This document shows positions 28,164 to 50,300 of a DNA stretch of 64,000 bases, one piece after another. Positions within the stretch are counted from its first letter, which is position 1. The number at the start of each line of letters is the position of its first letter. Below the pieces are notes generated by a model that ran no database searches, was not told the DNA's origin, and saw only the letters and a program-made list of their open reading frames with translations. Made by a program: the position numbers and the translations under genes. This DNA is from Porphyra umbilicalis (Eukaryota > Rhodophyta > Bangiophyceae > Bangiales > Bangiaceae), in contig KV918887.1 in NCBI GenBank assembly GCA_002049455.2, positions 1-64,000 of the forward strand, read 5' to 3'.

Positions 28164-28823
28164 TGTATTGTGGGAATTGGCCTGTGGCACGCCCTTTGGG
28201 CGGTTACTTCCGCATGGTTCATTTTTTTATTGTTTGTTTGCTTGCCTGTCTTATATGCCTGCCGGCACTCATTACGATCGCTTGTGATCGGACGGTCGAT
28301 CGACCGGTGCCCTCGTTTGTATTAAATCACCGTGGGTCCGGCTTCGCCGTCGTGGGCACCACCCGGCTCCCCATCGGATGCCCTTCAACAAAAGGTCTTC
28401 TTCCTCGCCGCGACGGCGATAGAACTCGCTTTATTGCGTGGCTACGGTCGGTCTCAGTACACTGGTCATTGAACTAACGTTATCAATACCACATTTGGTG
28501 GAGCAGCAGGGGATACCTTCGCCTTCATCGTGCCTCGCGGCACGGTGTCACCGAGAACTTTCCCGCTGCCTCGTGGCATTGTGACGGTGTCGGTACGGTC
28601 GCTTGGCGCGCGGGGCGTGAGCCATCGACTTGTGGGCGTGGTGCCGGGGGCATCACGGTTGAGATCTTCGACGTTGGCGCGCAGGGCGTTAGCTCAGTCG
28701 AAACACTTTGTTCAGGTCCCAGTATGTCTACTGGTGGTACCGGCGGCACTCGGCGAGCCAGAGACGGCAAGGTGCCAGCTGGCTACCGGCCGCCGGGAGG
28801 GGGACAAGGCACTCCTGCCGCCC
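28164..28823 (+). mobile_element. LTR and leader of a second gypsy-like element, family C (fragment)
   Basis: The putative LTR is 28164-28493. It begins TGTATTGTGG, ends CAATACCACA, and carries a TATATG near 28250 and ATTAAA near 28322. It is followed by TTTGGTGGAGCAGCAGG (28494-28510), which has the TGG-N-acceptor-stem form of a tRNA primer site. A gag-like start, MSTGGTGGTRRARDGKVP, opens at 28724. The sequence is cut at 28824 by the gypsy A LTR. No second LTR of this family was found in the window. Confidence 0.6.
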
Positions 28824-29470
28824 TGTAGTACTACGGGGCCCCCTATGCGCCAGGGGGCCACCGCGGGGACGTCGGCGACGACGGGGGACGCGGTCCCCGA
28901 CGTGAGGTGGCGACGCCAGCGGCGGTGGTGGCCGACGGGGCGGCGACGCGGGGGGCGGGGCGAGGGGGCGGCTCCGCTGACCGGCTCGGGCCACCCGGGG
29001 AGCGTACCCGATCCGCCACGCCCGGCACGCGGGCCCCGCGGGAGGCCAGATTGGCGCGCCCGAGAGGGCGCTGGCGCGCCCGAGAGGGCGCGGCAGGCGA
29101 CGGCCGACCGGGCGCCACGCGGCGGGTGCAGCGCGTTGCGCGCGGGACGGTTTCTCCCCCTCGTCTGTAATGATCGCCTCGGGGGACTTGACATGCATGG
29201 ATGGAATTATCTGCATTGGTTTGTGACGGCCCGGGTCAATTCCCATTGGGGGAAATTGGGCCCGTGCGACGGTTTCCGCCCTTTTAGGACGAAGGGCGAC
29301 GACGGTGGGAGGCACCGTCGTCGCCGGCAAGTAAACCGTGTCTTGATGTCTTGGCGTTTCGATCGGCCCGACTTCCCGGACCTCGAGTCCCATAGCGGGT
29401 ATCGCGCGAGCGGCTAAGACGGCCGTTACTTCCCTCCTTCTGAGGTAACCCCCTAGATTGTGGTACTACA
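28824..29470 (+). repeat. Gypsy A 5' LTR
   Basis: It starts TGTAGTACTACGGGG and ends GTGGTACTACA. It is 647 bp long, with internal tandem copies of GCGCGCCCGAGAGGGCG near 29056-29092. It differs from the 3' LTR at about five positions. Confidence 0.92.
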
Positions 29471-29472
29471 TT

Positions 29473-29490
29473 TGGCGCTCCGGGTGAGAC
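29473..29490 (+). promoter_or_regulatory. Gypsy A primer-binding site
   Basis: TGGCGCTCCGGGTGAGAC lies two bases after the LTR. It has the TGG-N-acceptor-stem-complement form expected for a tRNA 3'-end primer. I cannot name the tRNA. Confidence 0.6.
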
Positions 29491-29618
29491 CCGTGGTACG
29501 CACGCCGTGCGTGTCGCGGATCGACACCTCTTTCGGTACCAAGAGTCTGGGGACCCTCGTTGGTTGTATTGCGGTGCGGTGACGGAGGACATCCGATCGA
29601 TACGCGGGACCCGCTTCC

Positions 29619-32064
29619 ATGGCTCTCGGATCTTCCTCATCTTCCCCGCTTGACGGGGGCGCTCCTCCGTTTGAGATGCCTGGCACTAGCCGGGTAACGG
29701 ACGCGCCACCGGCGGGAGACCCCGGGGCAACACCGGCCTTGGGCGCCGTGGCCCCCGTTGGGGGTGGAAGGGCGGTCCCGGTTGGCGGCGGAGGTACGGT
29801 GGCGGGTGAGTTGAACTCTCCGCCCGAGGACCCCGGCCGCACGCCGACCACCGGGGCTCGTCCTCCTCCCGGCGCGGGATGGACGTCCACGCTGATGGAG
29901 CCCCAGGCAGGGGGTGCGGGGGTTCACCCTTCCCCCCTGGACGGGCAGCGCCTGGAAGGGGCGCCGCCCTTTGGCCCTCCCCGCGTGGACGCGGTGGGCA
30001 GTTCATCGGGAACCTTAGTTGGCGGGACCCCCGCGGGCCGGGGGCCGCGTCGACCAATGGACGCGCTGTCGCTGGAGGAGGACGAGCGGCAGCGCCGGGA
30101 ATTACAGCGAGCGTTCGGGGTCACCCCGGAAGAGGTGGCCCGGGCCCGGTGGCAGAGGACTACCCGGGACCACTGGTCCCTGGACGCGCCGTCCGGGGCG
30201 GGCGGGTCGGGGCCCAGCCTGCAGGGGGTCGGCGGAGCCGCGGCTCCAGGACCACCTCGGGCGGCGGCCGACCCCGGGCACCTGCGCCACTTGGCTCAGG
30301 TGTTCCGCGACGCCGTGGAGGAGGCGTCGACCGCGGCATCGGACGGGACCCCGGTCCCGGGGCGAGGCGCGGCCGTGGCCCTGGCCCTGGCGGCGGCCCA
30401 GGGCCCTTCTTCTGGGACCGCGAGCGCGGGTGGACCGGCATTCCCGGAACCCGGGTCAGGCACGTCCGGGGAGCGCCCCCGGACGGGGGGAGCTACCCGG
30501 ACGGGGGGCGCTACCCGGACGGGGTCCGCCTTGACGGTGACTGCCTCGCCGGCCGCGCGCCCTGCGCGGCCGCGGTCCCGGAGGGGCGCCGAGCGTCGAC
30601 ACCAGAAGTCGGTTCCCTCTAAGGGCCACCGACGGCGTCGCCACGCCCGACAGGCGCCGTCACCCCCCTCGTCGGGGCCCCCCTCGTCGACCGAGAGTGA
30701 TGAGAGTCCGTCGAGCTCGTCATCCGCCGCCAGTGGGGCGGAGTCGACGGACAGCAGCGACGGCTCGACCTCGTCCTCCGCCACCGGCAGTGACCCCGGG
30801 GCAACACGCCGCCGACGGCGGGCACGGGCGGCCGACAAGCGGCCACACCGGGCCCTAGTGCAAGAGGCGCTGCGCGCCTTCCGGCGGGAGCAGCGGGATG
30901 ACACGGTGGTCGACCCCCGCTTCAAGGGGCTCCTGTCGCCGGAACGGTACCGGCTCGCACAGCGAGGGGGCCGCCAACACCTCCCGCGAGGCAATTCCAT
31001 CCGCAACATCCGAGCGGACGTCAAGGCCTTGATGCACACCTCGCGGCAGTTTGCGGGCGACACCCCGTTGGGGTTGGTGGCGTTCCTTGGGAACTTCCAG
31101 ACGGCATGCGACGGCAGCGGGCTGAACGAGGGTACGGCAGTGACACTGCTGCAGTACTTCTTCACGAGCGAGGTGCTTGGCGTGCTCCAGCGCGCCAAGG
31201 ACACCCACGCCTCGCGGCAGCTCACGTACAAAAGCGCGGTCCACGCCCTGCTCAACGAGTACCTCGACGGGGACGTCCTGGTGGACCACCTCCAGTCCCT
31301 CATGCAAGCATCCCAAGAGAAGTGGGAAGACGAGTAAGAGTTTGCGAACCGCATCCTCGATGCTAACCGTGCCTTGGGCTCGGTCCTACAAGAAGCCGAG
31401 CTGAAGGGTATCCTACTCAAGGGCGTTGGACGGGAAGTCCGGGCCCTGGGGCGGAACTTCAACACCCAGGGCCGGACCTTCCCCAAGCTGCGCAAGTTCC
31501 TTTCCAAGACGGGAGCAGCCACCCGGGAGGCCCGGGGGGTTAAGCTCCAGGCCAAGCCCAAGGGGAGCACCTCCCGGTCGGTCGGCGGTGAAGAACGGGA
31601 GCCCCGTCGGACCCGGCCGGCAGCATCCGTCGCCCTCCCGGTGGGAGCCGCCTCTCCCGCGGCTGCTCTGTCCGTCCCAGACTACGGAACCGAGGCGGAG
31701 CGGGCTGAGAGGGCCGCGGTGTTGGCCGCGTCGGGGACGCCCGTTGAGTACGGGTCCCCGGGCGACGTCCCGGTATTTCCGGTGGACAGTCTGCCGCGCG
31801 CGTCGGGCTGGCAACAGCAGCCCGCGTCGGGCGGGCGCCCGGAGTTGTACCCCGTTCACACGGGGGCGGGGCGCGGGCGCGGTACCCTGGCGCCGGCCAC
31901 CCCGGTGCCTCCACGGGCGGGAACCGTCTTCTCGCACTCGGATCGCCCCCCGCGGTTTCCCCGCGGCGGGGCGCCTCCACCGCGTGGCGGCGGATGGAGC
32001 GGGGCACCCGAGGCGGGGCCCCCGCCCCGTCGGCGGGGGGCCTGCTCGTTTTGTGGGCACCTGG
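29619..32064 (+). CDS. Gypsy A gag region
   Basis: The gag polyprotein region starts MALGSSSSSPLDGGAPPFEM. The N-terminal part is Gly/Pro/Ala-rich. A Ser-rich linker follows near 30690-30790. The capsid-like region (about 30840-31330) has balanced composition, including NSIRNIRADVKALMHTSRQF and LTYKSAVHALLNEYLDGDVL. The C-terminal part is basic and Pro/Gly-rich, and leads into a zinc-knuckle-like CSFCGH motif just before the copia insertion. Its role is particle assembly and RNA packaging by analogy with Ty3/gypsy elements. Confidence 0.75.
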
Positions 32065-32322
32065 GGGCTTTGCTTTGATCCCTGATGCTTTGATTTGGTG
32101 AGCGTTTTGATTTAGAGTGTGGGCGGGCGCGTGCGCGGGCGAGCTGCTTGGGCTGCGTGGTGGGCTTGAGTGCTCCGACTACTTGAGGAGTGCCCTTGAT
32201 GGGAAGTGGGGCGCTTTGGAGAGACAACCAACAAAGCACGTTCGCACACATACACACAAAGCTCAAGCCACTCAACCACTTCACCGTGGTCCCCCATCCC
32301 CTATCCCCACTGCGTTTCAACA
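32065..32322 (+). repeat. Copia A 5' LTR (portion)
   Basis: It is 258 bp long, matches 36841-37098 with three differences, and ends CTGCGTTTCAACA. Confidence 0.9.
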
Positions 32323-32340
32323 GGTTATGGGCCCAGAGCC
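32323..32340 (+). promoter_or_regulatory. Copia A primer-binding site matching the initiator tRNA-Met anticodon arm
   Basis: GGTTATGGGCCCAG directly follows the LTR. It is the exact complement of CTGGGCCCATAACC, the anticodon stem-loop of typical eukaryotic initiator tRNA-Met, and not of a tRNA 3' end. Drosophila copia and yeast Ty5 are known to prime from such a half-tRNA. A related site is at 19013-19028. Confidence 0.75.
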
Positions 32341-32486
32341 GGGGCTGTGACAAGGGCAAGGCGTGCCAGACGGCGTCGCGGCGGTCGCGACAAGTGCGAA
32401 GAAGACGAGTGCAAGGTGGTTCAAGGACGTGACGGTCAAGGCGCAAGGTTCGGCAAGATCGGGAAGCGCTACGACAAGCAAGCATC

Positions 32487-35400
32487 ATGGACGGTGGCGC
32501 TGCCGGCATGGGCGGCATCAAGATTGACAAGTTGATGGACACGAACTTCCACGAGTGGTGCCAGCGGATCAAGATGATCGACATGCTTGACGAAGACGGC
32601 AAGCCGACGGACGCGGAGGACCGCGAGTTGGCGGTGTGGAAGCGTCGAGACACGAAGGCGAGCGCCATCATCGGGCTCACCCTTGGGTCTGAGCAGCTCG
32701 AGCACGTGTCGGGGTGCAAGACGACGGCGGTAATGTGGTCGACCCTGCAAGGCGTCTTCCAGCGCAAGAGTTTGATGAACAAGATGAAGGCGCGACGCGA
32801 ATTCTACACCGTCGCGATGAACGTCGGCGAGGGCATGCTGGGCTATATCAACCGCGTGCGCAACCTCGGCGAGAACCTCAAGGCCATGGGCGGCGAGGTG
32901 ACGGAGATGGATGTCGCCATGAGGGTTCTGAACGGGCTGACGTCAAAGCATGAGAACCTGCTGGTGGCTCTAGACGCCAAGGGCGAGGACGAGCTAAGCC
33001 TCGACTTTGTCAAGAGCCGCTTGCTTCAGGAGGAGCGGCGTCAGGCGGACAAGTCACCGGCGGTAAAGCGCATTGGTGACATGGCACTCGTCGGCGCCAA
33101 CTATCGAGGTCAAGGCCGCCGTGGTGACCTTTCCAAGATCGAGTGCTACTACTGCCACAAGTTTTGGCACATCGCTTATGATTGCCCAGAGCTAAAGGCC
33201 AAGAAGCAGAGACAGGACAAGGTGGCCGCGATTGCGGCTGATGACGGTAGCGACAGCGACGACGCCATCTGTCTCGTTGGCAACGCGGATGACAACGATG
33301 ACATTTCCAAGTCGTGGCTTATCGACTCTGCGGCGTCTGCACACATGTGCTGGATGCGTGCGTGCTTCGATGACTACAAGACGACCACGGGACGGAGCGT
33401 CACGATTGGTGACAAGGGGTCCGTGGCCACGGCGGGCGTCGGAACCGTCGTCCTCAACGTCATCGTTCAAGGCACGACGCGCAAGATCAAGTTGGAGAAG
33501 GTGCTCCATGTTCCTTCTATGGGCTTCAACCTCATGTCGGTCGGCATGATGGAGGAACGCGGTGCGGAAGTGTCGTTCAAGCGCGGTATGTCCATCATCA
33601 AGATGAACGAGAAGATTGCTGCGTGCGGCACGCGTAAGAACGGGCTCTACCACCTGGACATGGCCCCTTTGTCGGATGTTGCTGCGGTGGCCTCTCTGCA
33701 GCTATGGCATGAGCGTCTTGGCCACGTGAACGTGGCCGGCGTCAAGACGATGATCAAGAACAAGGACGTAGACGGACTCAAGTGCACTTCCATGGTGGTC
33801 AAGGACATCTGCAAGCCGTGCGTGTACGGCAAGGCGGCAATGACGCCTATGCCTAGCGCAAGAGGCGTTCGTGTGACCAGGCGGCTCCAGCTCGTGCACT
33901 CGGACCTCGGTGGACCTATGTCAGAACCCTCTCGCGGCGGAGCGCTCTACTTCGGTACGTTCACCGACGAATTCTCCCGCTGGACGGACGTGGTCTTCTT
34001 GCACAAGAAGAGCGATCTTCTCGCGGAGTACAAGAAATGGCTGACCAAGGCACAGCTGCACACCGGCAACAAGATCAAGGTGCTCCGGTCCGACAACGGC
34101 GGCGAGTACGTGTCGTTCGCATTCAAGGCACTTCACGATGAGAACGGCACGACGCACCAGACGACGGTGCCCGACACGCCGCAGCAGAACCGGGTTGCTG
34201 AGCGACTCAACCGAGTTCTCGTGGAGATGGCTCGCACCATGATGCGACACAAGGACGTCGACCAGGATCTTTGGGAGGATGCCATCAAGACGGAGGTCAA
34301 CATCGAGAACCGCGTCACTAGCCGTGCGCTTCCTGTAGGCAAGACGCCTCATGAGCTATGGACCGGAAACAAGCCTGACGTAAGCCACATGCGGGTGTTT
34401 GGGTCAACATGCTGGGTGGTACTGCACAAGAGCCACGTCGATGGCAAGTTCGGAGACAAGGCGGCAAAGGGCATTTTCGTGGGCTATCCCGACGGCAGCA
34501 ACGCGTACAAGGTCATCCTGGACGACGGCAAGGTCGTCAAGGCGCGAAGCGTCGTTTTCTCCGAGAAGAACTCAAGCAAGGTTGCAGATGTTCCAGAGGA
34601 TTCACCCGTGGACGAAGTCGTGGAAGGCGAGACGGGCTTGGATGCCGGCAGCGACGACCCAGACGTCGACGCTGAAGATGACGGCGGTGACGACCAGCAA
34701 GATGATGGCTCGGACAAATCGGCAGACGACAATCAAGGTTCTGCCGGATCTCAAGACACGCTGCGTCGGAGCGGCAGATCGCGGAGGCCTCCGGTTGAGT
34801 ACTGGCGTCCAGTGAGCCTTGTTGCTCACGAGGCTCCCATGACGTATGGTCAAGCAGTTCAAGGACAAGAGTCGACCAAGTGGCGGGCCGCAATGGACCA
34901 GGAGATGGACTCTATCCGCAAGAACAAGACATGGCGTTTGACGGATCGCCCGGTCGGCCGACGCGTGCTCAAGGGCAAGTGGGTTTACAAAGTCAAGGAC
35001 GAGCTGGACAAGGTCGGGAACAACAAGACGCGGCACAAGGCGCGCCTGTGCTTTATGGGCAATCGGCAGATCAAGGGGCTTGACTTCAACGAGACGTTTG
35101 CGCCGGTGGCCAAGTTCACTACCATCCGATGCATCCTGGCAATGACGGCGGCGAACGGGTGGGAGCTGCATCAGATGGACGTCAAGACGGCCTTCCTGAA
35201 CGGCGACCTTGACGAGGAGGTCTACATGGAGCAGCCGGAGGGATACGTCGATCCCACGTATCTGGACAAGGTGTGCCGTCTTCTCCAAGCGCTGTATGGG
35301 CTTAAGCAAGCCCCCAAGATGTGGTACGCCAAGCTTGACGCCTTCCTCAAGTCGCAAGTGTTTGACAACATCGACCCGGATGCCTGCCTCTACCTCCAGA

Positions 35401-36394
35401 TGGATGACGGTGAGATCATCATCGTCCTGGTGTACGTCGACGATCTTCTTCTGGTCGGGTCAAGCATGGAGGCGATTAACAAAATCAAGAAGGCGCTTCG
35501 CAAGCGCTTCGAGATGAAGGACCTGGGCGAGGCCAAGGTCATCCTCGGGCTAGAGATCAGCCGTGACAAGACGTTGGGCACCCTCAAGCTGTCGCAGGGC
35601 AAGTACGCGGGACAAGTGCTCGAGAAGTTCGGTATGGCGGAGTGCAACCCGATCGCGACTCCGTTGGAGGTCGGGCTGCAGCTGGCTAAGTCGGAGAAGA
35701 GCGACGAGTCTCTTCCTTATCGCGAGGCCGTCGGAAGCCTGATGTACCTGATGGTCGGGACGCGTCCTGATCTCGCCTTTGCGGTCGGCAAGCTAAGCCG
35801 TTTCGTGTCGGGCTACGGGAAGGAGCACTGGGCGGCTGTGAAGCGCGTCCTCCGATATGTCAAAAGGGGTCTGTCGACAAGGGCCTGGTCTACAACAAGT
35901 CCGCGTCGGGCATCCTCCAAGGTTTTAGCGATGCCGACTGGGCAGGTGACTACGAGACGCGGCGGTCTACGACGGGCTTCATGTTCATCTTTGGCGGGGC
36001 GGCCGTCAGCTGGGCTTCGAAGTTGCAGAAGACGGTGGCGCTATCTACCATGAAGGCGGAGTACATGGCTCTTTGCGAGGCCAGCAAGGAAGCTGTTTGG
36101 CTCGACAAGCTCATCCAACGCGTCACCATGCTCGTGACGCAGTCGGACAACTTGGTTGGGCCGGTTAACATCAAGGTCGACAACAGCGGCTGCATCGACT
36201 TCGCCAAGAATCCCGTCGAGCACAAGCGCACCAAGCACATCGACATTCGCTACCACTTTGTGCGGGATGCGATCACGACGGACAAGGTCATCCTCGAGCA
36301 CCGCCCAACGGACGAGATGGCGGCAGACCCGATGACGAAGGAGCTCGCCAAGGTCAAGCATGACAAGCATGTCAAGACGATGGGGATGTGTTGA
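32487..36394 (+). CDS. Copia A gag-pol coding region
   Basis: The retrotransposon polyprotein region begins MDGGAAGMGGIKIDKLMDTN. Domains: UBN2-type gag (about 32500-33060); CCHC zinc knuckle CYYCHKFWHIAYDC (about 33140-33185); aspartic protease with SWLIDSAASAHM (about 33315-33350); integrase zinc-binding motif HERLGHVNV...CKPC (about 33708-33820); catalytic core with HSDLGGP and LRSDNGGEY (about 33895-34205); acidic linker (34590-34740); reverse transcriptase with LVYVDDLLLVG (about 34900-35600, YVDD near 35433); RNase H with TKHIDIRYHFV near 36230. All motifs are typical of Ty1/copia. Confidence 0.9.
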
Positions 36395-36559
36395 CTTCAA
36401 GTACGCGCCGTAAGTACATCCGGATGTAAGTACATTGCTCCTCCAAGGCGGCCATGACGGGCGGCATCGGATTTGGGACGTCAAGATTCCAGGCGGACTT
36501 ACTTCTCGACAAGTACTTCAAGGACGGTCAACTGTCAGGCGGCGTCAAGCAAGGGGGCG

Positions 36560-37098
36560 TGTCAGAACGTCATGCTCAACGCCGCTGTAGGCCCTCCTGC
36601 TGTAATAAGCAAAATTCAAGAAACCAGGTATTGACAGGGTTCGAACCCCCGACTCCCGGACGCGACCCGAAGGTCACGCCTAATGAGAGTGGGTGCCGAC
36701 TGCCCACTAGGCTACCCATGCGACTTCCTCGCGGTTTGGTGACCGCTGGTGCATTCGACATTTGTACCCGTGCGATTTTGAGTGAAATTTTTGCGATGTC
36801 ACATTTTTTGTTCTTGCGTTTCTGATGGTTTGATTTGCATGGGCTTTGCTTTGATCCCTGATGCTTTGATTTGGTGAGCGTTTTGATTTAGAGTGTGGGC
36901 GGGCGCGTGCGCGGGCGAGCTGCTTGGGCTGCGTGGTGGGCTTGAGTGCTCCGACTACTTGAGGAGTGCCCTTGATGGGAAGTGGGGCGCTTTGGAGAGA
37001 CAACCAACAAAGCACGTTCGCACACATACACACAAAGCTCAAGCCACTCAACCACATCACCGTGGTCCCCCATCCCCTATCTTCACTGCGTTTCAACA
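36560..37098 (+). repeat. Copia A 3' LTR
   Basis: It starts TGTCAGAACGTC and ends GCGTTTCAACA, and is 539 bp long. Relatives lie at 17192-17734 (inverted) and 25248-25558. It contains the tRNA-like section at 36632-36722. Confidence 0.85.
36632..36722 (-). other. tRNA-like segment with A and B boxes inside the copia LTR
   Basis: On the minus strand, TAGCCTAGTGGGCAG fits the pol III A-box consensus TRGCNNAGYNGG. About 50 bases on, GGGTTCGAACCC fits the B box and T-arm. Between them CGTGACC-TTCG-GGTCGCG forms a 7-bp stem with a UUCG tetraloop, like the long variable arm of a class II tRNA. A full acceptor stem is not evident, so this is unlikely to be a working tRNA. It is retained in the copies at 17572-17675 and 25300-25405. 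Confidence 0.6.
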
Positions 37099-40000
37099 CC
37101 TGCGCCAGGTCCGCAAGCGGCGGGCCTCGGCGGGCCTCGGCGGGATTCCCGCCAGCGCCCGCCTTCTGCCCCCGCATCCTCGCGCGGCCCGGCGGGGTCA
37201 GCCACGCGACGGCGGACGTGCCGGACCGCCGCCCCGTCCCAGCGACGCCGGTGGCCACCGAGGCCGTCCCTCCGTCTCCGCCGGTCGCCGCGTCAGTCCT
37301 GGCCCTGGGCCACTCCGACCCCCGGCCGTGGGGTGGCGGGGATGGCATCCCGGCGGACTTACCCGCCAACGGGGCGCGCACGGGGCAGGGGCTCCGGCGG
37401 CGCCTCGGGGGACGCGCTCGGCGCGAGCGTACCCGCTTTCGCCGCCACGCCACCGCCGTCGCGGACACCACGCACGCGTCGGGCACCCCGTCCGGGGGCG
37501 GGGAAGTGCTGCTTTTCAGTCTGCACAACTACCGCATCGTGGCCTCGCTGGGGCTGGACAAGCTGTCCCTCCGTGCGTTCGGCGTCGTCGTCGACACGGG
37601 GGCGGGCCCCAACTTTGTCCGCCGGAACGCCCTCGCTCCTGACTGGCTCTGCCAGGTGGTCACCTCCAAGGAGGAGAAACAGGTACGTCTACGAGACGCC
37701 AACAACGCGCGGTTACGCACTAGCGGTACCGTCACGCTGTGGCTCCAGACGGGCGCACGGATCGTCCCGGTTCCCTTCTTCTTCGTCGACGACCTGTCGG
37801 TCCCAGTCATCTTGGGCTGCACGTTCATCGACGACAACGCCCACGCCATCCTGCCTCAGGATAGGTCCATCCGTTGGACGGACGGGTCCGTCACGGCGAT
37901 CCTACGGGGGCCGTTGGACGATGGTGACCGCTCAATGGGCGTCTCCTGCGTTCTCCGCGCGACGCACAAGACGCGGCTTCCGCCGTCGGCGGCCACGGTC
38001 GTCTGGATGCGGACTATGTTGGGGGGCCTGGGCCAGGTGTTCGGCGCCTCGCGCCTCTTCACAACGCATCGGGTCACCATCGCCAACGGCGTGCACGATA
38101 TTGTGCCGGGGCTATCTTTCCCGGTCATCGTGACCAACTTTGGCGCGCGCGAGGTCACCCTCCGGCAGAGGGCCAACATTGGCTACGTCGAGCTGCTGAC
38201 GACGGGTGTCGTACAGGTGCCCCCCGGGGCACCCCCCGGTACACCGCCCGCCCCGGGCTTCACGCCGGCCACAGCCGCCGAGGGCATCGTGGCGGCGGTT
38301 TCAAGCACCCGAGACGACCCCGCGCCGGGGCGGAGCCTGGACCCGACGACGGCCGCGGGCAGTAGGGCTGCGACCCCGCGCGACCCCGGGACCCGGGCGA
38401 AAAAGGCGCCGTGGCGGCCGCAGCGCTGCCCACGTCCCCCCCGCAAGTGGAGGACGTGTACCTGCCGGACGTCGACCCGACGCTGCACACCCGGATCCGC
38501 CGCATTCTGGACCAGCACAAGGCAATGTGGTCGGGCCAGGCGCTCGGCGTCATCAAAGCCACCCAGCACCGCATCGACCTTAACGCCGGCGCCCGGCCCG
38601 TCCGCTTCGCGCCGCGCCGCGCGGGGCACATGGCACGGGAGGCCGAGACGGCCAATGTCAAGCGGCAGCTGGAGGCAGACGTCATCGAACCGACGTCGTC
38701 GGAATGGGGCTTCCCGGTCGTGCTCGTCCCTAAGAAGGATGGCACCCTCCGCTTCTGCGTCGATTATCGACTGCTGAACGTCGTCACCAAGAAGGACTCG
38801 TACCCGCTGCCCCGGATGGACGAGTGCATCGACAGCCTCGGCGAGGCAACCATCTTCTCGACGTTGGATTGCAACGCCGGCTACTGGCAGGTTGCCATCG
38901 CACCCGAAGATCGGGAGAAGACGGCTTTCGTGTGCCACGAGGGCGCGCACCAGTACAAACGGATGCCGTTCGGCCTAACAAACGCCCCGGCGACGTTCCA
39001 GCGGGCGCTGGACATCATCCTCTCCGGGGTGAAGTGGCAAAGCTGCCTCATCTACCTCGACGATGTCATCGTGTACTGCAAGACGGAGGAGGAACACGTC
39101 GGCCACGTCCACAGCGTTCTGCGCCTGCTTCGCGACGCGGGAGTGACACTCCGCCTGCCCAAGTGCCGGTTCTTTCGTCAGACCGTGGAGTACCTCGGGC
39201 ACGAAATCAAGCCGGGCCGGCTCGGCGTGATGGACGCGCACACGCGCGCCCTGCGCGAGGCGCACTTCCCCACGACCCGCACGCAAGTGCGGAGCTTCGT
39301 GAGGATGTGCAACGTCTTCCGCCGGTTCGTGCCGAGCTTCGCAAGGATGGCGGCGCCATTGACGGACCTCATGGGGTCCACGGCCCCTGTCATGGTGCCT
39401 CCCGCCACGCCATTGCAGCAGCAGGCGTTCGACCGACTCAAGGAGGCCCTCACGACCCCGCCGGTCCTCACACTCCCGCGGCGCGGGCGGAAGTACGTCC
39501 TTGACGTGGACGCCTGCGGGACGCAAGTGGGCGCCGCCCTGCTGCAAGAGCAAGACGACGGGAAGCTCCAGCCGGACGCGTATATCAGCCGGCGGCTGGC
39601 AACGAACGAGCTCCCCTACGGAGTCACGGACAAGGAGTGCCTGGCAGTCGTCTGGGCGTCGCTCAAGCTCCGCCTCTACCTCGAGAGTGATCGTTTCCTC
39701 GTGCGCACGGACCACGCCTGCCTGCGGTGGATGCTCATCATCGAGGGGTCCGGGAATCCCCGCTTGGCACGCTGGCGCCTTCGCCTAAGCGAGTTGGAGT
39801 TCGACGACGCCTACAAGCCGGGGATGACGCACTTCATGGCCGACAGCATCTCCCGCCTGGAGTCCGGGGCCAGCGACGAGACCGCGTTCGACGACGCGGT
39901 CCCCGTCTTTGCCGTGCGGGCCAACACGGTCCGGGGGCTCGACGCCGCCAACTACGTTGGCGGCCCTACGGTCCGTGACATTAACCGCGACGCGGTGCTC

Positions 40001-41253
40001 TCGGCCCAAGCCGGCGATGGGTACTGCAAGGAGACCGGGAAGGCCCTGAACGACGGGCAGCGCATCCCGTTCTTCGAGGAACCCGATGGGGTCCTCCGGC
40101 GACGCGCGGCGCCCGATGGCGCCCACCAGGTGGTGGTCCCAACCTCCTTGCAGGAGCAGGTCCTTCATCTGGAGAACGACGCGACCCTCGCCGGGCACCC
40201 TGGGGAGTCCCGCATGTATGCGGCGATGCGGCGGTACTACTACTGGGTGGGGATGGCGGCCGACGTCGTCTCCTATGTTGGGAAATGCGACAGCTGTGCC
40301 CGGCAGCGCGTGCGCCCTCTGGCGCGGCGCTCGCCCCTAACTCTGTTCCCCGCCACCATGCCCTTCCAGGACATTGCTGTGGACCTCTACGGGCCCCTCG
40401 AGCGAACGGCCGCCGGCCACCGGTTCATCCTGGTGATCACCGATCGATTCACCAAGCTGGTGCGCGCCATCCCGATGGACGGTACGTCGGCGGTGGACTG
40501 CACCTCGGCCGTCCTGGACTACTGGATGGGCGCTTATGGTCCGCCGGACCGGCTTCTCTCGGATGGGGGACTCCAGTTCACCAGCCACTTCTGGGGCCAG
40601 GTTTGCAACCTGCTCTCCATCGAGCCTAAGGTGACGTCGCCGTCACACCCGCAGACGAATGGGCAGACGTAGCGGTTCAACCGCACGATGCATACGATCC
40701 TAAACCACTACGTGGTGGAGCATCCGCGGTCCTGGGACCAACTCCTTGGGGCCCTGACGCTGGCGTACAACAGCCGCCACCACCGTAGCACCGGGGTTGC
40801 CCGCTGGAACTGGTCAAACCCATGGGGGTATCCAGCTGGGCTTTCAAGGACATCCCAAAGTCCGGGGCGTACCCCATCACGGCGCAACGCGGCACCGCCG
40901 CCGAGAAGCGGGCCAAAGCCACCCTCCTGACCCGCCTCGTGCAGCTCATCCTGAAGATGCGGGCAACGCTCAAGGCGACGCAGGGGCGCTACAAGCGCGA
41001 CCGCGACAAGTGCCTCGCGCTGCGCGCGGAGAAGCTCACCGTGGGGGGCTGCGCGTGGCTGCGCGACCACGCCAAAAAGGAGGGTGCAGGTGGAAAGTTA
41101 ACACACGTCGCCCGCGGACCGTATCGCGGGGTCTCCACGGACGGCCCGACGGTCCTCCTGGACGTGGACTGGGAGCACCGCCGTGAGAACGTCGCGCACG
41201 TCGTCCGCGCCTCGGGCACGGCCGCCGAGTCCTCTGCCCAACACCCCGCGTAG
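37099..41253 (+). CDS. Gypsy A pol region
   Basis: The Ty3/gypsy pol is in the standard order. Aspartic protease has VVDTGAGPNFV near 37590. Reverse transcriptase spans about 38560-39260, with VPKKDGTLRFCVDYRLLN, FSTLDCNAGYWQV and YLDDVIVYC (near 39050). RNase H has YVLDVDACGTQVGAALLQ near 39495. The integrase zinc-binding region has HLENDATLAGHPGESRMYAA...CDSCARQR (about 40165-40310). The integrase core has FILVITDRFTKLVRAIPM and LLSDGGLQFTSHFW (about 40380-40600). It lies downstream of the nested copia and upstream of the chromodomain-like module. It is largely intact, with few breaks. Confidence 0.9.
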
Positions 41254-41262
41254 CGGGCAGTG

Positions 41263-41568
41263 CGCTCCTTCCATTGGGCGGAGGCCGACGGCCAGCGGTA
41301 CGCCGTGGACCGCATCGCGGACCACGCGACGCTGCCCGACGGCACCCTCCGGGTCCAAGTCTACTGGACCGGATACTCGCAGCCCACCTGGATGGACGCC
41401 GCGGACGCCCCGCACGAGACGCTGCGCGTCTACCTGCGCCGCGCCGCGCGCTTGGGGCTGCCCCAAACGTCCGCCGACCCGCCGCCGGCGGTCCCGCAAG
41501 ACGCGGCTCCCGACGGCGGCGCCGCCTCGGGCGGCGCCGCCACGCCGCCCTCGGCCATCCGTGCCTGA
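41263..41568 (+). CDS. Chromodomain-like module after gypsy A integrase
   Basis: The region reads RYAVDRIADHATLPDGTLRV, then QVYWTGYSQPTWMDAADAPH, ending in a Pro/Ala tail and TGA at 41566-41568. The V-x-I, Y-x-V-x-W-x-G-Y and W spacing matches chromodomains found at the integrase C-terminus of chromoviruses, which target insertion to modified chromatin. About 100 residues are open. Confidence 0.75.
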   Translation, partial: RSFHWAEADGQRYAVDRIADHATLPDGTLRVQVYWTGYSQPTWMDAADAPHETLRVYLRRAARLGLPQTSADPPPAVPQDAAPDGGAASGGAATPPSAIRA

Positions 41569-41810
41569 CCCCTTGGGTCTGAGTGGTGGCCGGGCGCGGC
41601 GGGGGGGAGGGTGGGGTTTTTTGGGGATTTGGGGCCTTGGGGCCGTCGTGGGGGGGGGGAATGCGTACCAGCGGCCAAGGTGTGGCGGGGCCACGACGGG
41701 CAGCGGACGCTGAGTGGTTCTAAGAGCAAGCCCACGGCTTTATTCTACGGCGGACGATGACCTAACGCCGTCGGACTAAGCGCCACACCTACGGGGCCAG
41801 GGCGATGCCC
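41569..41810. other. Spacer between sense pol and the antisense ORFs
   Basis: The spacer is G-run-rich (GGGGTTTTTTGGGG-type near 41615 and GGGGGGGG near 41650). It separates convergent reading frames and would be a logical place for transcript ends. No clear poly(A) signal was found. Confidence 0.45.
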
Positions 41811-42779
41811 TCAGTCGTGACGGCGATACTCCCATACGTGAACAGGGCGGCCCGCCTTGCGTAGGACGCGCCGCAGGGCGGCGCGAAACCGCTTCGCCCG
41901 CGTCCGCGGGGACTCCAGGCAGGGGAAGACGTCGGCGGTGAGCCCGATGCGGGCGTACTCGACCAAAGCGGCGGTGATCTCGCAGGGCCCCACCTCGGAC
42001 CAGTTGATGGACGGGTCGTACCCGAACAAGGCGACAACCTGCCCGGACGTCAGCGAGTCCAGCCACTCCGTGGCCGTCACCGGGGTAGGGGGCGTCCACG
42101 ACGCGGACAACCACCAATCGTAGGCGACGTCCGGTTGCCCCGGAACGGGGTTCACGACGGGGCAGGCAACCCCCAGCTCCATCGGCGCCATGGCGAGACC
42201 GTCGTTGGCGGGGACGGCATCCAAGCGCGCGGGACGCGGACCGGCGGGCGCCGCGGCTTCGCCGGCGGGGCGGTACTCGGACCGCCCGTAGCACCCGCCG
42301 CTAGCGCCGCCATCGCGGCCCTGGCCGCCGTCGAAGGGCCATGCAGGCTCGTCACGGACGGCGGCCATATAGCCGCGGCCATAACTCGGACCGGCCGCCG
42401 ACCACACGCGGTCGTCCCGCACGTCGCCACGGCGGCCAGGGCCGCCCTCCCAGCGTTCGTCGCGGTCGCGACGGGGGGCAGCGGCGCCGCCGCCCGTCTC
42501 GGACGCCCACCCGCGCCCGGGCCGGTCACCGGAAGTGTCGGCGTGGTCGCCGCGCCACGTCGCGTCCCAGCGCTCGCCGTGAGCCGTGCCGGCCCTGTCC
42601 TCGCGGACCGCCGCGCGCGGGCCCCACTCGGCGCTGCCGGCAAGAGTCGACGCCGAGAAGCCGCGGGGGTAGGCGTCGGGACCTCCGGGGTTGCCGGCGT
42701 TGGCCTCCTCCTCATCCCCCTCGGGGTGCCGGGGCCCCGGGCGGTGGGGCACAGGTAGAGCCGGGCCGCCGCGCGCCAT
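41811..42779 (-). CDS. Antisense ORF 1 of gypsy A, unknown function
   Basis: A 322-codon ORF lies on the strand opposite gag-pol, between the chromodomain module and the 3' LTR. It starts MARGGPALPVPHRPGPRHPE. The first two thirds is Gly/Arg/Asp-rich and disordered in character. The last third is balanced, with Trp/Tyr/Phe: DVAYDWWLSASWTPPTPVTA, VVALFGYDPSINWSEVGPCE and a basic end, RRVLRKAGRPVHVWEYRRHD. The start is 57 bp past the stop of the second antisense ORF, so both may share one antisense transcript. I recognise no domain. Antisense ORFs in the same place are known in some plant Ty3/gypsy elements, which supports it being real. Confidence 0.6.
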   Translation of the reverse strand: MARGGPALPVPHRPGPRHPEGDEEEANAGNPGGPDAYPRGFSASTLAGSAEWGPRAAVREDRAGTAHGERWDATWRGDHADTSGDRPGRGWASETGGGAAAPRRDRDERWEGGPGRRGDVRDDRVWSAAGPSYGRGYMAAVRDEPAWPFDGGQGRDGGASGGCYGRSEYRPAGEAAAPAGPRPARLDAVPANDGLAMAPMELGVACPVVNPVPGQPDVAYDWWLSASWTPPTPVTATEWLDSLTSGQVVALFGYDPSINWSEVGPCEITAALVEYARIGLTADVFPCLESPRTRAKRFRAALRRVLRKAGRPVHVWEYRRHD

Positions 42780-42836
42780 GTCGGCGTGGCGCCGCTTCCG
42801 CGCACGGTACGCGGCCGACGCGGCCGCCTCCTCCGT

Positions 42837-44322
42837 CTACGGCGGGACGGCGTCCGGGTCGGCTGAGGTGAAGCTGGCCGGTATCGCCCATGGCTCCGCC
42901 GTCACGGGCAACGCCCGCGGGGCGACGTCCGCAAGCCGCGGCTCCGCGAGCATGACCTCCAACGGGGCCTGCGGCGACCGCAAGACGCTCACGACGCGGA
43001 CGTTGTGGCGCCGGCCGTCCGCCACGGTACCCACTTGGTGGGGCAGCAGGGTGCTGCGGGCTTGACGGGTGGTATCGTGGTGGTAGGGCAGTAGGTAATG
43101 GACGGCCGCCCAGGGCACCACCCTCACGATGGCGTCGTACTCCTCCAAGGCGTCGGCGGCACCGCTGTCTCCCGGCGCGGGGTCGTCGACCTTGAACTTC
43201 CGCGTGAAGTTGTAGTAGCACGGCGACGGCTCGAAGACGCGGTGCGTCTCGCGGTACGCGCGCAGCAACCCCGACAAGATGGCGGCCTTCAGCATGACGA
43301 AGGCCGTGCCCTGGATGGGGTGGCAGGGGAACGCCTGCAGCAGCGACTGCTGCTGGTGCACAACGGGCGGGTACTCGTACGTCAGCAGCCGCGGCGTCGC
43401 ACACCGCGTGGCCATTGCCGGCGGCAAGGGAGAACGCGCCGGCGTCAAGGCAATGCCGGAACGGACGGACAGGACGATGGCCCCGTGCCCCGCCCGTCGG
43501 GCGCTTACGAGCTCGCCGTGCGCGCGGCGCGCGGCCTCCAACGCCAAGTCCGCCGGGGCGGTCGCGGGGCCCACCGACGCCAACGCGATCAGGGGGCCCA
43601 CGCCCCCGAAGTTGGCAAGCGCCAAGGAGTGACCGAACGGGACCGCAGGGCGGTGGCGAAGGCGTGCGTGACAGTCCTCGAGGTAGGCGTACTCCTCTTC
43701 GCCGGCGACGAACGGGAGCTCGGCCGCGGGATGCGGGACCAAGAGCACCCGCCCCGGGTTGCACGGCAACATGCAGCGCAGCCACGCCGCGCTGTCTCCG
43801 ACGGAGCGGACGAAGGAAGCGAAGTCGCGCTCGGCCGCCGGCCGGGTACCGTAACCCGCCACCTTGGCGAACTCCTTGAAGGCCCGCCACACGGCGGCTG
43901 CCTCGCCTGCGTCGTGGGGATGAGCCGGGAGGAAGACGTCGCTGACGTGCGGCCAGTCGGCCGAGGCCACGGCCGGCCCCAGCGGGGCGAGCCACGCTCG
44001 GACGGCGGGCGGCGCCGGGCGTGGCGGGAGCGCGGGGGCCGACTGCCCCAACAACGGCGGGCGCTCCTCCGGCACGACCGCGGGACCCCCGCTGGGGGAG
44101 GCAGCCGGGCAAGCCGCGGACGCGGCCCCGGCGCTGGCTACCCCGCGGCACCGACGGACGGACGGGGACGGTTGGGCGGCGCCCGGGCGGTCCCGACGCG
44201 GGCGGCGCGACGGCCGCCGGCGCCGGCCCCGGAGCGGCGGCCGCCGTGCACGGGCACGCCAGGGGCGCGGGGGACGGAGCCCCGACGGGGCTGGCGGGGG
44301 GCGTCGCCGGGGACGGCTCCAT
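42837..44322 (-). CDS. Antisense ORF 2 of gypsy A, unknown function
   Basis: A long open region on the minus strand begins MEPSPATPPASPVGAPSPAP 16 bp inside the 3' LTR and ends at a stop at 42837-42839. The N-terminal part is Pro/Ala-rich. The main part is globular in composition, with all aromatic residues: AAAVWRAFKEFAKVAGYGTR, SFVRSVGDSAAWLRCMLPCN, FGHSLALANFGGVGPLIALA, LLTYEYPPVVHQQQSLLQAF and ETHRVFEPSPCYYNFTRKFK. The opposing plus-strand frame reads as a typical shadow (Arg/Gly/Val-rich), so the minus strand is the credible one. I see no signal peptide, membrane segment or known motif. The adjacency to the LTR suggests transcription from the LTR in antisense. Treat it as an element-borne gene of unknown role. 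Confidence 0.6.
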
Positions 44323-44337
44323 CTCGTCCGAAGGGGA

Positions 44338-44984
44338 TGTAGTACGACGGGGCCCCCTATGCGCCAGGGGGCCACCGCGGGGACGTCGGCGACGACGGGG
44401 GACGCGGTCCCCGACGTGAGGTGGCGACGCCAGCGGCGGTGGTGGCCGACGGGGCGGCGACGCGGGGGGCGGGGCGAGGGGGCGGCTCCGCTGACCGGCT
44501 CGGGCCACCCGGGGAGCGTACCCGATCCGCCACGCCCGGCACGCGGGCCCCGCGGGAGGCCGGATTGGCGCGCCCGAGAGGGCGCTGGCGCGCCCGAGAG
44601 GGCGCGGCAGGCGACGGCCGACCGGGCGCCACGCGGCGGGTGCAGCGCGTTGCGCGCGGGACGGTTTCTCCCCCTCGTCTGTAATGATCGCCTCGGGGGA
44701 CTTGACATGCATGGATGGAATTATCTGCATTGGTTTGTGACGGCCCGGCTCAATTCCCATTGGGGGAAATTGGGCCCGTGCGACGGTTTCCGCCCTTTTA
44801 GGACGAAGGGCGACGACGGTGGGAGGCACCGTCGTCGCCGGCAAGTAAACCGTGTCTTGATGTCTTGGCGTTTCGATCGGCCCGACTTCCCGGACCTCGA
44901 GTCCCATAGCGGGTGTCGCGCGAGCGGCTAAGACGGCCGTTACTTCCCTCCTTCTGAGGTAACCCCCTAGATTGCGGTACTACA
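44338..44984 (+). repeat. Gypsy A 3' LTR
   Basis: It starts TGTAGTACGACGG and ends TTGCGGTACTACA, 647 bp. It is preceded by GAAGGGGATG, a short polypurine tract. Confidence 0.92.
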
Positions 44985-45886
44985 CCAGAGGATAGAGGAT
45001 TTCCCTCAGAGTGTTGCGACACGTCGACAAGTTCAGCGGGGCCGCCGGGGCCGCCGCAGCCGACGGCGGCGCCGCCGGTGCCGGATCATCCTGCGCCTCT
45101 CGCGGTGGCCGCTCGACAAGCCACTCTGACGAGGACGCGGAGGACGCAGATGCTGGCGGTTACCAATCGCGCCCGCGTGGTCCAAAGGCCGCCAAGCGTG
45201 ACAAGGCGGAGGACATCCAGGCGTCGCGTATGCTGAAGGAAAGCACGGACGCGTTGTCTGTGTTGGCCCGAGCAACGTCTGAGCGTACAACCGTGGCAAT
45301 TTTCAACGGTGCTGAGATGCGGGACACTCCTGAAGCTGTCGCTTTCCGTCGCGCCCATCCCCGCAAGCTGATGGCGGCGGCCGGGTTGGACGTGTCCCCG
45401 CCGGGTACTTTGTCTTCTCTGGCGGGGACGGCCGCCGCCTCCACGCCCGCGACTGGCGCAGATGTGCTGTCGGAAGGACAAGCGACGCCCTTTACACCCG
45501 CCCTCACATCAACCTCGACACCGCGTACGCCGCCGGCGCCGGCGCCGGCGCAGGCACCGGCGGCTGGCGCGGCACTGGTGCCGGCATCTCCGCCGGCGGC
45601 GAGCAGCACAGGACCTGAGCCGCCTGTACGAGCGGACACGGAGGCGGCGGCGAGTACATCTGCACTGCCGGCCTCGGCGGACGGCTCCGGTGCAGCGAGC
45701 CGTGACCGGCGGTAGGCGGCGGCAGCTCTTGCCGCCGCTTCGAAGACGCTCGACGACGAGAACGACGGCGTTTATGTGTTGCCTCTCTGTAACACGCGCG
45801 ACAGTGGCGCGGGCCATGTCGAGGACAAGGATGAAGCTGAGGAGGATGACTCTTGTGAAGACGAGACCAACGCTGAGTACGAATAG
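44985..45886 (+). pseudogene. Remnant of a NAM-associated/MYB-like transposon protein (PIF/Harbinger ORF1 type)
   Basis: An open frame runs from just after the gypsy A LTR. It contains QSRPRGPKAAKRDKAEDIQA, then SRMLKESTDALSVLARATSE, then an Ala/Pro/Thr-rich section. The RP-G-KAAK element followed by a charged helix resembles the C-terminal 'NAM-associated' domain seen in PIF/Harbinger accessory proteins and related plant genes. The frame has one TAG at 45713-45715 and then continues in the same frame with a Ser/Asp/Glu-rich acidic tail (DDENDGVYVLPLC...) to TAG at 45884-45886. The N-terminal DNA-binding part is absent at the LTR junction. The assignment is by motif resemblance only. Confidence 0.42.
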
Positions 45887-47397: not shown

Positions 47398-50300
47398 GTG
47401 CTCAAGGTGACGCCGGTCCAGGCGTCAGCTAACTCGGCATCCACGCGCCTAGCTGGGGAGGCGGAGCTGTTGCACCGTCGTTTCAACCATTTGGGGTTAG
47501 AGAACCTCAAGCGGGCGGCCGCAATGGTCGACGGCATGCCGGCGTCAGTGGCAGACGCCAAGCGCGTTATTGGGACTGTGTGTGTGCCGTGTGTGGACGG
47601 CAAGATGGTGCAGGCGCCGAGCCCCCGCTCGTCTACAGCGACGATCAAGTGCCAGCTGGTGCACACCGACATTGGTGGCCCACTCACTGAGTCGCTGGGT
47701 TGTTCCATCTACTTTATGACGGCGCTGGAGGACTCCACGGGGTTCATCACGGCAACGCCTATCAAGACGAAAGGGATGGCACCGCAGGTTCTCAAGACGC
47801 GTATCAAGCAGCTTGAGACGCTGACGGGTGTCAAAGTCAAGCGCGTCCGTCATGACGGTGCAAAGGAGTACGTCACCAACGACCTCAAGGCATGGTACGA
47901 GGACAAGGGCATCACGTCGGAGATGATAGCGCCGTACAAGTCACAGCGGAACGGCAAAGCGAAGCGGATTAACCGCACGCTGATGGAGCGCGTGCGTGCT
48001 GCTTTGCTCGATGCCGGTGCGGAGGCAGACCTGTGCGCTGAAGCGTTGGCCTCTGTCGTCCATGTGCTCAACCGGTCCCCCAAGGCGGGGCTGGACGTGA
48101 CACCGCTGGAGGCCCTAACGGGTCGACGGCCCAACGTCGCGGGATTCCGCGTTTGGGGGAGCCGGGCGTGGGCGCTCAAACCCAAGAAGCAGCAACGCAA
48201 GCTGGAGCCAAGGACCGACGTCGGCCGCTTTGTCAGCTACACGGTCGGTGGAAAGGCCTACCGCATCCTCGAAGATGAGACGAACCAAGTCTTCGAGCGT
48301 CGAGACGTGCTGATGGAGGAGAACCTGGCTAAGGTCAAGGCGTCGGCAGTCGGGTCAAGCGCTGGTCCCCGGCTGACGGCGGGCAATGACGGCGGCAAGG
48401 ATGACGCCACGGAAGAGGCAATGGACATGCTCGACGCTGAACGCGGGCGAGAGGACGAGTACGCCCCCGACGACACCTCTGACAGCGACGAAGAAGTCGG
48501 TCCTCCATCCCTTGCTGAAGATAGCGAGGAGGAGGTCGAGGATTGCCCCGATGGCTCGACACCGGCGGGCGGTCAAGGACCTGCTACCTGTGACAGCGCC
48601 GCACCTGGGCCTCGTCGCTCAAAGCGAAAGCCAGCTCCCAAGGTAACATGGTGGGAGAAGGAACCCAAGGCGTACTTGGCAAGCGGTACCAAGAGTGCGG
48701 CTGAGTCCGGCTGCGACCTTCACAAGCCCCCGGCAAACGAGAAAGAGGCGCGTGCTAGTTCTGATTGGCCGCGTTGGAAGCAGGCCATCAAGGAGGAGGT
48801 GGCAGCACACAAGAAGCTTGGCACCTGGTCCAAGATTAAGGTAAACAACAAGAAGCACAACACCATCAAGATGCGTTTCGTGTTCGACATCAAGCACGAC
48901 GCGGAGGGCGAGATGAAGCGCTACAAGGCCCGCCTCGTGGCCGAAGGTTTCAACCAAGTGCCGGGGCGGGACTTTGACGAGACGTGGGCGCCGGTGCCCA
49001 GCGCGGCTACCACACGGGCCCTCTTTGCTGTGGCTGCAGCCACGGGCTGGGAGGTTCACCGTGTCGACGTCAAGACAGCCTTCCTCAACGCCAAGATGGA
49101 CAAGGAGATGTACATCAAACTCCCCGACGGTATCGAGCCGGAGGGCGTGGAGGAGATGTGTCGGCTTAACCTGGCGCTCTACGGGACAAAGCAGGCTGGG
49201 CGGCTGTGGGGCATCAAGCTCGACAAGGAGCTCAAGGAGATCGGTGCACTGCGATCCAAGGTAGACCCGTGCCTCTACGAGTGGTGCCACTCTGTGCACG
49301 GGCGCGTCTTCATCCTCGTGTACGTCGACGACCTTATCGTGGCGGGCGAGAAGCTTTCTGGAGTTGCTGCCGTCAAGCGCTCTGTGTCGGCAAAGATCGA
49401 AGTACGTGACATGGGGGAAGTTAACGACTTCATTGGCATGAAGGTCATGCGTGACCGTGAGTCGAAGACGCTCACTCTGAGAAACCCGGGTCACACGGTG
49501 ACGCTGCTGGAGGCGTTTGGGATTGAGACCTCTACCCCAAACAAGGCGCCAATGGCGTCAGGGGTCAAGCTAGCCAAGACGGGCGAGGACCTGCTGCCAG
49601 AGGGTAACCGGTACGCCGAGTTGGTAGGCTCCCTCCTCTACCTGTCAACCACGACAAGGCCGGACATCGCCTTTGCCGTGGGGGTGCTGTCGCGCTTCAT
49701 GTCGTGCCCTGAGCAGGACTACATGCGCGCAGCAAAGGGGGTATTGCGCTACCTGCGCAGGACAACCCGCCTTGGAGTGGTCTACGACAGGCTTCGTCTT
49801 CACCCTCAATGGCGGGCCCATCGCGTGGGCAAGCAAGCGCCAGTCGACGGTGGCAACCTCAAGGGCTGAAGCGGAGTACGTGGCCGCCGCGATGACCACC
49901 AAGGAGGCGCTGAGGCTACGCAAGCTGCTGTTGGCTCTGGGCTTCGATGGCGGGGCCATGCCGATGGGGGAAGACAACCAGGCTTGCCTCGCCTTCGTCA
50001 ACAACCCCGAAGCCACTGGGCGTACCAAGCACGTGAATGTCGCGTACCACATGGTCAGTGACTACGTGGCGCGCGGGGAGGTGACGTTCTACTTCATCCC
50101 TAGTGTGTAAATGCCGGCAGACGGGCTGACGAAGCCGCTGCCGGCCCAGGCGTTCGTCTTGTTTCGGCGCGTTATTGGCGTTGGCGCCGATCTTGGCAAC
50201 GCGGGGCTGGGCGCTACGCCGGCCACACGTCCTGCTTCCACGTGCTGAGCCCCTCCGTGGTCGGCGGAGGTCTTTTGCGGAGCGACCATGGTGACGGGCC

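Follow-up and report, generated by a model that had tools for sequence, protein, structure and literature searches.

An apparently selected antisense gene in a Ty3/gypsy retrotransposon family, very likely of a red alga

Downstream of pol in a Ty3/gypsy retrotransposon family, the strand opposite gag-pol carries a single long frame, and it looks as though purifying selection has kept this frame as a protein-coding gene. The copy first noticed lies in the window (the whole stretch of DNA analysed, 64,000 nucleotides, which is part of contig C127), where the element spans 28824 to 44984; 83.8 Mb of genome were searched for further copies. Twelve matches to phycobilisome linkers, four of them on contig C665 (taken to be the plastid) and eight spread over seven other contigs, make a red alga the very likely host, and a bangiophyte would suit the GC content and genome size. 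We consider it fairly probable that this frame, which lies between the chromodomain-like module and the 3′ LTR and runs against gag-pol, encodes an accessory protein of a red-algal Ty3/gypsy element (probably a chromovirus), and that its product would be nuclear, bind nucleic acid and assist or regulate the element. A further-reaching proposal is doubtful and is offered tentatively, namely that red-algal gypsy elements are stably ambisense, with an antisense gene of ancient origin that was present before two families diverged, a new family of nuclear nucleic-acid-binding proteins, a bidirectional LTR and control over the life cycle of the element. Antisense ORFs at this place are known from angiosperm and fungal elements, and whether they yield useful proteins is a debated question (PMC6317226, available in part). 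Neutral singletons set against constrained shared variants, together with recurrent indels that keep to multiples of three and a homologue in a second family, provide quantitative evidence of a protein that has been kept.

The element and its antisense gene

Paired LTRs and the order of reverse transcriptase, RNase H and integrase identify the element as a Ty3/gypsy LTR retrotransposon (Table 1). The Pfam matches run in the order RVT_1 (1.5e-35), RT_RNaseH (7.6e-27), Integrase_H2C2 (2e-18) and rve (3.8e-07, which is just under its Pfam cut-off), and the open frame that leads into them gave no match in a Pfam scan. The integrase end and chromodomain-like module are found in a single frame in another copy (L025:5122-7620), which also holds a complete CCHC motif of gag, as read by eye. 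The Pfam Chromo profile scored 11.6 bits (E 0.28) in L025 and 18.9 bits (E 0.0015) in L038 of a sister family, both below the cut-off of 25.1 bits, and chromovirus is a likely but tentative label for the element. The few differences between the LTRs mark the gypsy insertion as young. No target-site duplication is evident at 28811-28823 and 44985-44995, despite the near-identical LTRs. The window holds a recently inserted yet broken instance of the element. The nested copia element contains an ORF of 1188 amino acids at 32487-36053, from which its label was read by eye. Where copia interrupts gag, approximately 424 bp between matching flanks are missing from the window copy relative to copy C5. 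Elsewhere in the window, a second copia-like polyprotein frame of 781 codons (also labelled by eye) lies beyond the gypsy element at 47524-49869, and the first 2000 nucleotides (1-2000) have a GC content of 0.82, a GC skew of 0.355 and an AT skew of 0.339.

Table 1. Positions, within the window, of the parts of the Ty3/gypsy element, of the nested copia element and of the antisense gene.
Feature	Position	Strand	Remarks
5′ LTR	28824..29470	+	647 bp; 99.2% identity to 44338-44984, 5 mismatches in 647
gag region	29583..32066	+	open frames 29583-31337 and 31338-32078; zinc-knuckle stretch cut by nested copia
Nested Ty1/copia element	32065..37098	+	outside the gypsy element's own parts; LTRs 32065-32322 and 36841-37098, 99% identical
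Protease-like open frame	36975..38777	+	DTGAG motif read by eye; leads into reverse transcriptase
Reverse transcriptase, RNase H and integrase	38525..40672	+	Pfam matches
Integrase end and chromodomain-like module	40822..41500	+	frame broken in window copy; right edge approximate
Antisense gene	41811..44322	-	860 codons in copy C5; window copy with 71-bp loss and one in-frame stop
Second piece of broken gene	41811..42779	-	322 codons; includes conserved C-terminal domain, homologous in sister type
First piece of broken gene	42837..44708	-	623-codon open frame; 5′ part outside native frame
Start codon of antisense gene	44320..44322	-	16 bp from 3′ LTR
3′ LTR	44338..44984	+	directly upstream of antisense gene on the minus strand

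The first-pass annotation had described two separate antisense ORFs between pol and the 3′ LTR, one of 322 codons and the other an open region of roughly 490 codons, only 57 bp apart. The placement, the 322-codon ORF and the gap to the second region, which begins at 42837, were all found as described. The second region exists, but its length is really 623 codons and it reaches into the LTR. A closer inspection reveals that the two are not separate ORFs but pieces of a single gene, sharing a frame with one in-frame stop between them. Nor does the gene begin 16 bp inside the 3′ LTR, as had been supposed: the ATG at 44322 is 16 bp outside it.

In copies C5, C41, C55 and C49 the gene is uninterrupted and forms a single minus-strand frame of 1003-1081 codons from stop to stop. 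Reading toward pol from the ATG equivalent to window position 44322, the C5 copy encodes the 860 residues of protein P0001. A 71-bp loss close to the 5′ end of the gene marks the window copy, whose ATG is out of frame with the 623-codon open region; when this copy is aligned to P0001, one frame covers residues 3-860 with one stop, and the 5′ part falls in another frame because of the missing 71 bp. Searching the genome with the C-terminal third of the antisense protein gave at least 112 matching stretches, many of them broken; among those listed, 17 contain no internal stop and stay open for 850 codons or more, and in one of these the match covers only 92 residues. The ATG is conserved in 16 of 19 aligned copies (11/11 of the main group of close relatives, 5/8 of the divergent group), and the position of the stop in 11/11 main copies and 2/8 divergent ones.

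Selection on the antisense frame

GC-rich DNA is poor in stops, and the antisense frame might be a compositional shadow, any constraint belonging to a feature of the sense strand. The region 42001-44000 is 74% GC, and when 41511-44622 was shuffled 1000 times with its dinucleotides preserved, an open frame of 636 codons or more appeared 12 times, so that chance alone can match the frame of the window copy. The window copy taken alone is weak evidence, and the case depends on conservation between copies. In copy C5, by contrast, the open frame is 960 codons long and was reached in none of 1000 such shuffles. We regard the shadow as extremely improbable, for the reasons that follow.

Conservation among copies and dN/dS were examined with 17 of the 19 aligned sequences in the six-frame, shared/singleton and indel tests; the two left out were L035, which is aligned over 311 codons with 34 indels, and C140, with 14 small indels. 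Pairwise dN/dS in the antisense frame was 0.61 within the main group (45 pairs), 0.46 between main and divergent copies (70 pairs) and 0.52 within the divergent group (21 pairs), whereas four other frames gave 0.95-1.38. The remaining frame is the mirror frame on the sense strand, which has its third positions in common with the antisense frame; its ratios were 0.58, 0.55 and 0.60 in the same order. Among main copies the mirror frame is thus as low as the antisense frame, and this holds for variants shared between them as well (0.40 in both), as a shadow would have it. However, each pair of copies has 20-27 codon pairs with a stop in the mirror frame, compared with 2-6 in the antisense frame (27 against 4 in main-divergent pairs). 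Moreover, the antisense ratio is the lower of the two for shared variants in the seven divergent copies (0.45 against 0.54) and in all 17 copies (0.52 against 0.63), and for fixed differences between the main and divergent groups (0.52 against 0.73).

Variants in the antisense frame were also separated by their frequency. Across the 17 copies, singletons had an N/S ratio of 1.08 and were spread over the three codon positions as 251/261/220, an evenness that is the expectation for dead copies. Variants present in at least two copies had a ratio of 0.52 and an excess at position 3 (132/132/190). The seven divergent copies gave 0.96 for singletons and 0.45 for shared variants, and the ten main copies 0.77, which is short of full neutrality, and 0.40. 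The difference between singleton and shared variants is significant in all three sets (Fisher's test, p = 1.5e-8 for 17 copies, p = 3.3e-8 for the divergent copies, p = 0.02 for the main copies). In a control on pol, made with nine copies, some of them partial and forming a different set, the ratio was 0.61 among singletons and fell to 0.13 among shared variants. Constraint acts on the antisense gene too, though more weakly than on pol (0.40 in ten copies against 0.13).

Indels were recounted in 16 copies with C5 as the reference. The five recurrent indels, that is, those of the same place and length in at least two copies, are all multiples of three (24, 81, 21, 3 and 18), compared with 1 of 20 indels found in a single copy. 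When no rows are dropped, multiples of three account for 21 of 38 indels in the other seven divergent copies and for 12 of 34 in L035. Taken together, the frame ratios, the constraint on shared variants and the indels in threes support antisense coding over a compositional shadow, and the coding claim of the first-pass annotation survived this check. The 30% identity with a protein of a sister family, described below, is likewise at odds with a shadow.

A related possibility is that the product which matters is an antisense RNA, controlling the element through dsRNA or small RNA for example, and that the protein is incidental. The gene adjoins the LTR, and the available part of PMC7264820 discusses a regulatory role of antisense transcripts in LTR elements. 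However, constraint ordered by codon position, indels in threes and protein homology at 30% identity are not predicted by an RNA function, and we hold this explanation to be quite unlikely.

Linkage to the element and homologues in related families

The antisense gene is steadily linked to the element. Linkage was counted on 85 of 112 rows of antisense-ORF matches and 92 of 134 integrase rows, with an integrase required in the right direction within 12 kb. Of the 63 matches with an integrase within that distance, 61 run opposite to it, and 46 of these 61 end 0.9-1.5 kb beyond the integrase. A further 22 of the 85 have no integrase within 12 kb. Counting all 112 antisense and 134 integrase rows, so that pieces of the same copy are counted apart, 82 are antisense, 4 are sense and 26 lack an integrase; 82 of the 86 linked matches are therefore antisense. 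Of the copies behind the 22 unlinked matches, C49, C143 and, partly, C55 lack the stretch of pol that bears the integrase.

A sister family of gypsy elements is present in this genome, its integrase being approximately 60-65% identical to that of the family described here. Two copies of it, C13 and C99, have an antisense frame downstream of pol, the C-terminal part of the antisense protein being shifted to another frame in each. The C99 protein matches residues 130-520 of P0001 with 30% identity over 330 amino acids (E 5e-15, composition-corrected); the raw score of 94.4 bits compares with at most 32.7 bits in 100 shuffles and 24.6 bits for the reversed sequence. P0071 (1013 amino acids), a sister-type protein among the database relatives, contains two blocks homologous to P0001 in preserved order: its main domain matches with E 1e-18 and its C-terminal domain with E 3e-6, and a Gly-rich linker lies between them. 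Given a homologue in the sister family, either the gene was there before the two families separated or it has been exchanged between them. The sister family also has a long repeat array of self-similar blocks between pol and the antisense gene (L037:1020-3200, L038:1020-2900); about half of Retand elements have such an array, according to the available part of PMC11963269. In a third gypsy family (integrase approximately 45% identical), one copy, L039, gave low-complexity matches and no convincing homologue in the 4.5 kb past the integrase. Many copies of this third family have open frames of more than 1500 codons, e.g. C24:428648-429517 and C526:25843-26712.

These data bear on whether a separate gene or mobile element was inserted backwards into the gypsy element and has been carried along since. 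Antisense orientation would fit an acquired gene, as would the absence of similarity to gag (hhalign probability 0.2%, against one gag sequence rather than a gag profile), by which an origin from the element's own gag was rejected; so would the 22 matches without an integrase nearby. Against this, the distance from the integrase is held within narrow bounds in most linked matches, and the gene is also present in the sister family, so that any capture preceded the split of the families, or the gene was exchanged, and it has been retained since. Moreover, the genome matches include no clear free-standing host homologue, the 22 unlinked ones having been covered in part. An independent passenger is rather unlikely, and we favour a gene that belongs to the element.

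The antisense protein and its counterparts in known systems

P0001 begins with a Pro/Ala-rich N-terminus, followed by a conserved domain at approximately 130-520 and an RKRR basic stretch at 532. Beyond this lie a linker rich in A, G, R and D, which contains no RGG triplet, and a helical basic C-terminal domain at approximately 775-850. In P0006, P0011, P0014 and P0015 the linker contains repeated Gly/Ala-rich units of approximately 29 residues, which are absent from P0001. Three database searches, each scoring approximately 8000 candidates, returned at least 22, at least 63 and at least 9 relatives, the 63 including the 22; among the relatives listed, none carries a name or a precomputed Pfam domain. 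Set A2 omitted P0019, P0020 and P0023, which by eye leave the frame or are pieces, and set A3 comprised residues 130-560 of P0001 and 62 relatives, without P0017, P0019, P0020, P0022, P0023 and P0059-P0064.

The absence of a recognisable domain, remarked on in the first-pass annotation, extends to Pfam, PHROGs, PDB and fold searches, none of which gave a convincing match. Pfam found no family in P0001, and among 20 members a sole match, to DUF6021 in one member (E 1.5). Of the sister-type proteins scanned, L041 and P0071 had no match and P0068 one, to TetR_C_14 (E 0.13). PHROGs gave nothing for the two proteins scanned. A sequence search of the PDB returned six chains at E≤10, the top one being methionine aminopeptidase 2 (E 0.0047); here a Lys/Glu/Asp/Ser-rich stretch of the enzyme aligns with the charged, Gly/Pro-rich region after the main domain, and the match was judged to be compositional. 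Seven pattern matches in viral contigs were followed up and none was confirmed as a relative. AlphaFold models have a mean pLDDT of 34 for the full length and 52 for the domain, moderate confidence being limited to the C-terminal helices (approximately 775-850) and a helical core near 360-435. Three Foldseek searches on these low-confidence models gave no match at E≤0.001; sigma-28 fold matches to the full-length model were weak (E>1) and were not used.

An envelope-like protein or a second gag-like structural protein is very unlikely. Env-like ORFs are known in sense orientation (PMC7264820, available in part) and the gene here is antisense, whilst a sense gag bearing a zinc knuckle is already present in the element, and the protein shows no profile similarity to it. 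The lack of a fold match, albeit on poor models, points the same way. For the accessory protein that we prefer, an antisense promoter within the 3′ LTR or next to it would drive transcription, and the product may work in the nucleus and bind nucleic acid, regulating or assisting the element's own replication or integration as retroviral accessory proteins do. The proposed nuclear, nucleic-acid-binding role is a guess based on composition, on an NLS-like reading by eye and on analogy with the Grande antisense protein, for which a nuclear location is reported (PMC7264820, in part).

The arrangement has precedents. As the first-pass annotation had pointed out, antisense ORFs occupy the same position in some plant Ty3/gypsy lineages (available parts of PMC7264820 and PMC11963269); the aORF-3R of plant Retand, Grande and RIRE2 elements is likewise antisense and at the same place in the element. 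Retand is a non-chromovirus, 97% of whose clusters have antisense ORFs with a TRP28 domain (PF04195), as stated in the part of PMC11963269 available. The protein described here differs in lacking TRP28, which was present in none of 20 family members and nowhere in the genome at E≤1 (a search run without a plant genome as positive control); a relationship was ruled out on these grounds. The host differs too, being very likely a red alga. Reverse ORFs at the 3′ end are also among the extra ORFs (eORFs) of at least 250 codons in plant LTR elements, whose proteins are strongly divergent within lineages and whose function the survey questions (PMC6317226, in part). In contrast, the antisense protein here is conserved across two gypsy families.

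Among algae, chromoviruses occur in red algae (PMC3605345, in part), and the available part of a paper on the brown alga Ectocarpus (PMC12477816) has nothing on antisense ORFs. A literature search by titles and abstract openings, with subscription journals largely outside its coverage, returned no red-algal antisense gene of this kind. Fungi offer a further likeness, by description rather than by compared sequence, in brtn of the Botrytis Ty3/gypsy element Boty, likewise an extra gene in antisense. This gene is reportedly the subject of Zhao et al. 2011. It appears as an antisense gene of Boty in the available part of PMC7264820, and by title in the references of PMC8365987.

A possible functional parallel, with no homology claimed, is HBZ of HTLV-1, likewise a minus-strand protein gene with the 3′ LTR upstream. 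Retroviral antisense proteins of the HBZ type have a bZIP domain, and no Pfam bZIP match was found in P0001, in 20 members or in the sister-type proteins scanned. HBZ is described as a retroviral antisense gene in the part of PMC11963269 available. As far as the search extended, the arrangement is already known, and the novelty lies in the protein family, in the host group and in the evidence for selection. The range of elements bearing antisense genes is thereby widened to what is very likely a red alga, and a defined protein family is now available for tests of its role. If the ambisense reading were true, the gene would stand as an independently evolved counterpart to the antisense regulators of retroviruses, in a lineage distant from both animals and land plants.
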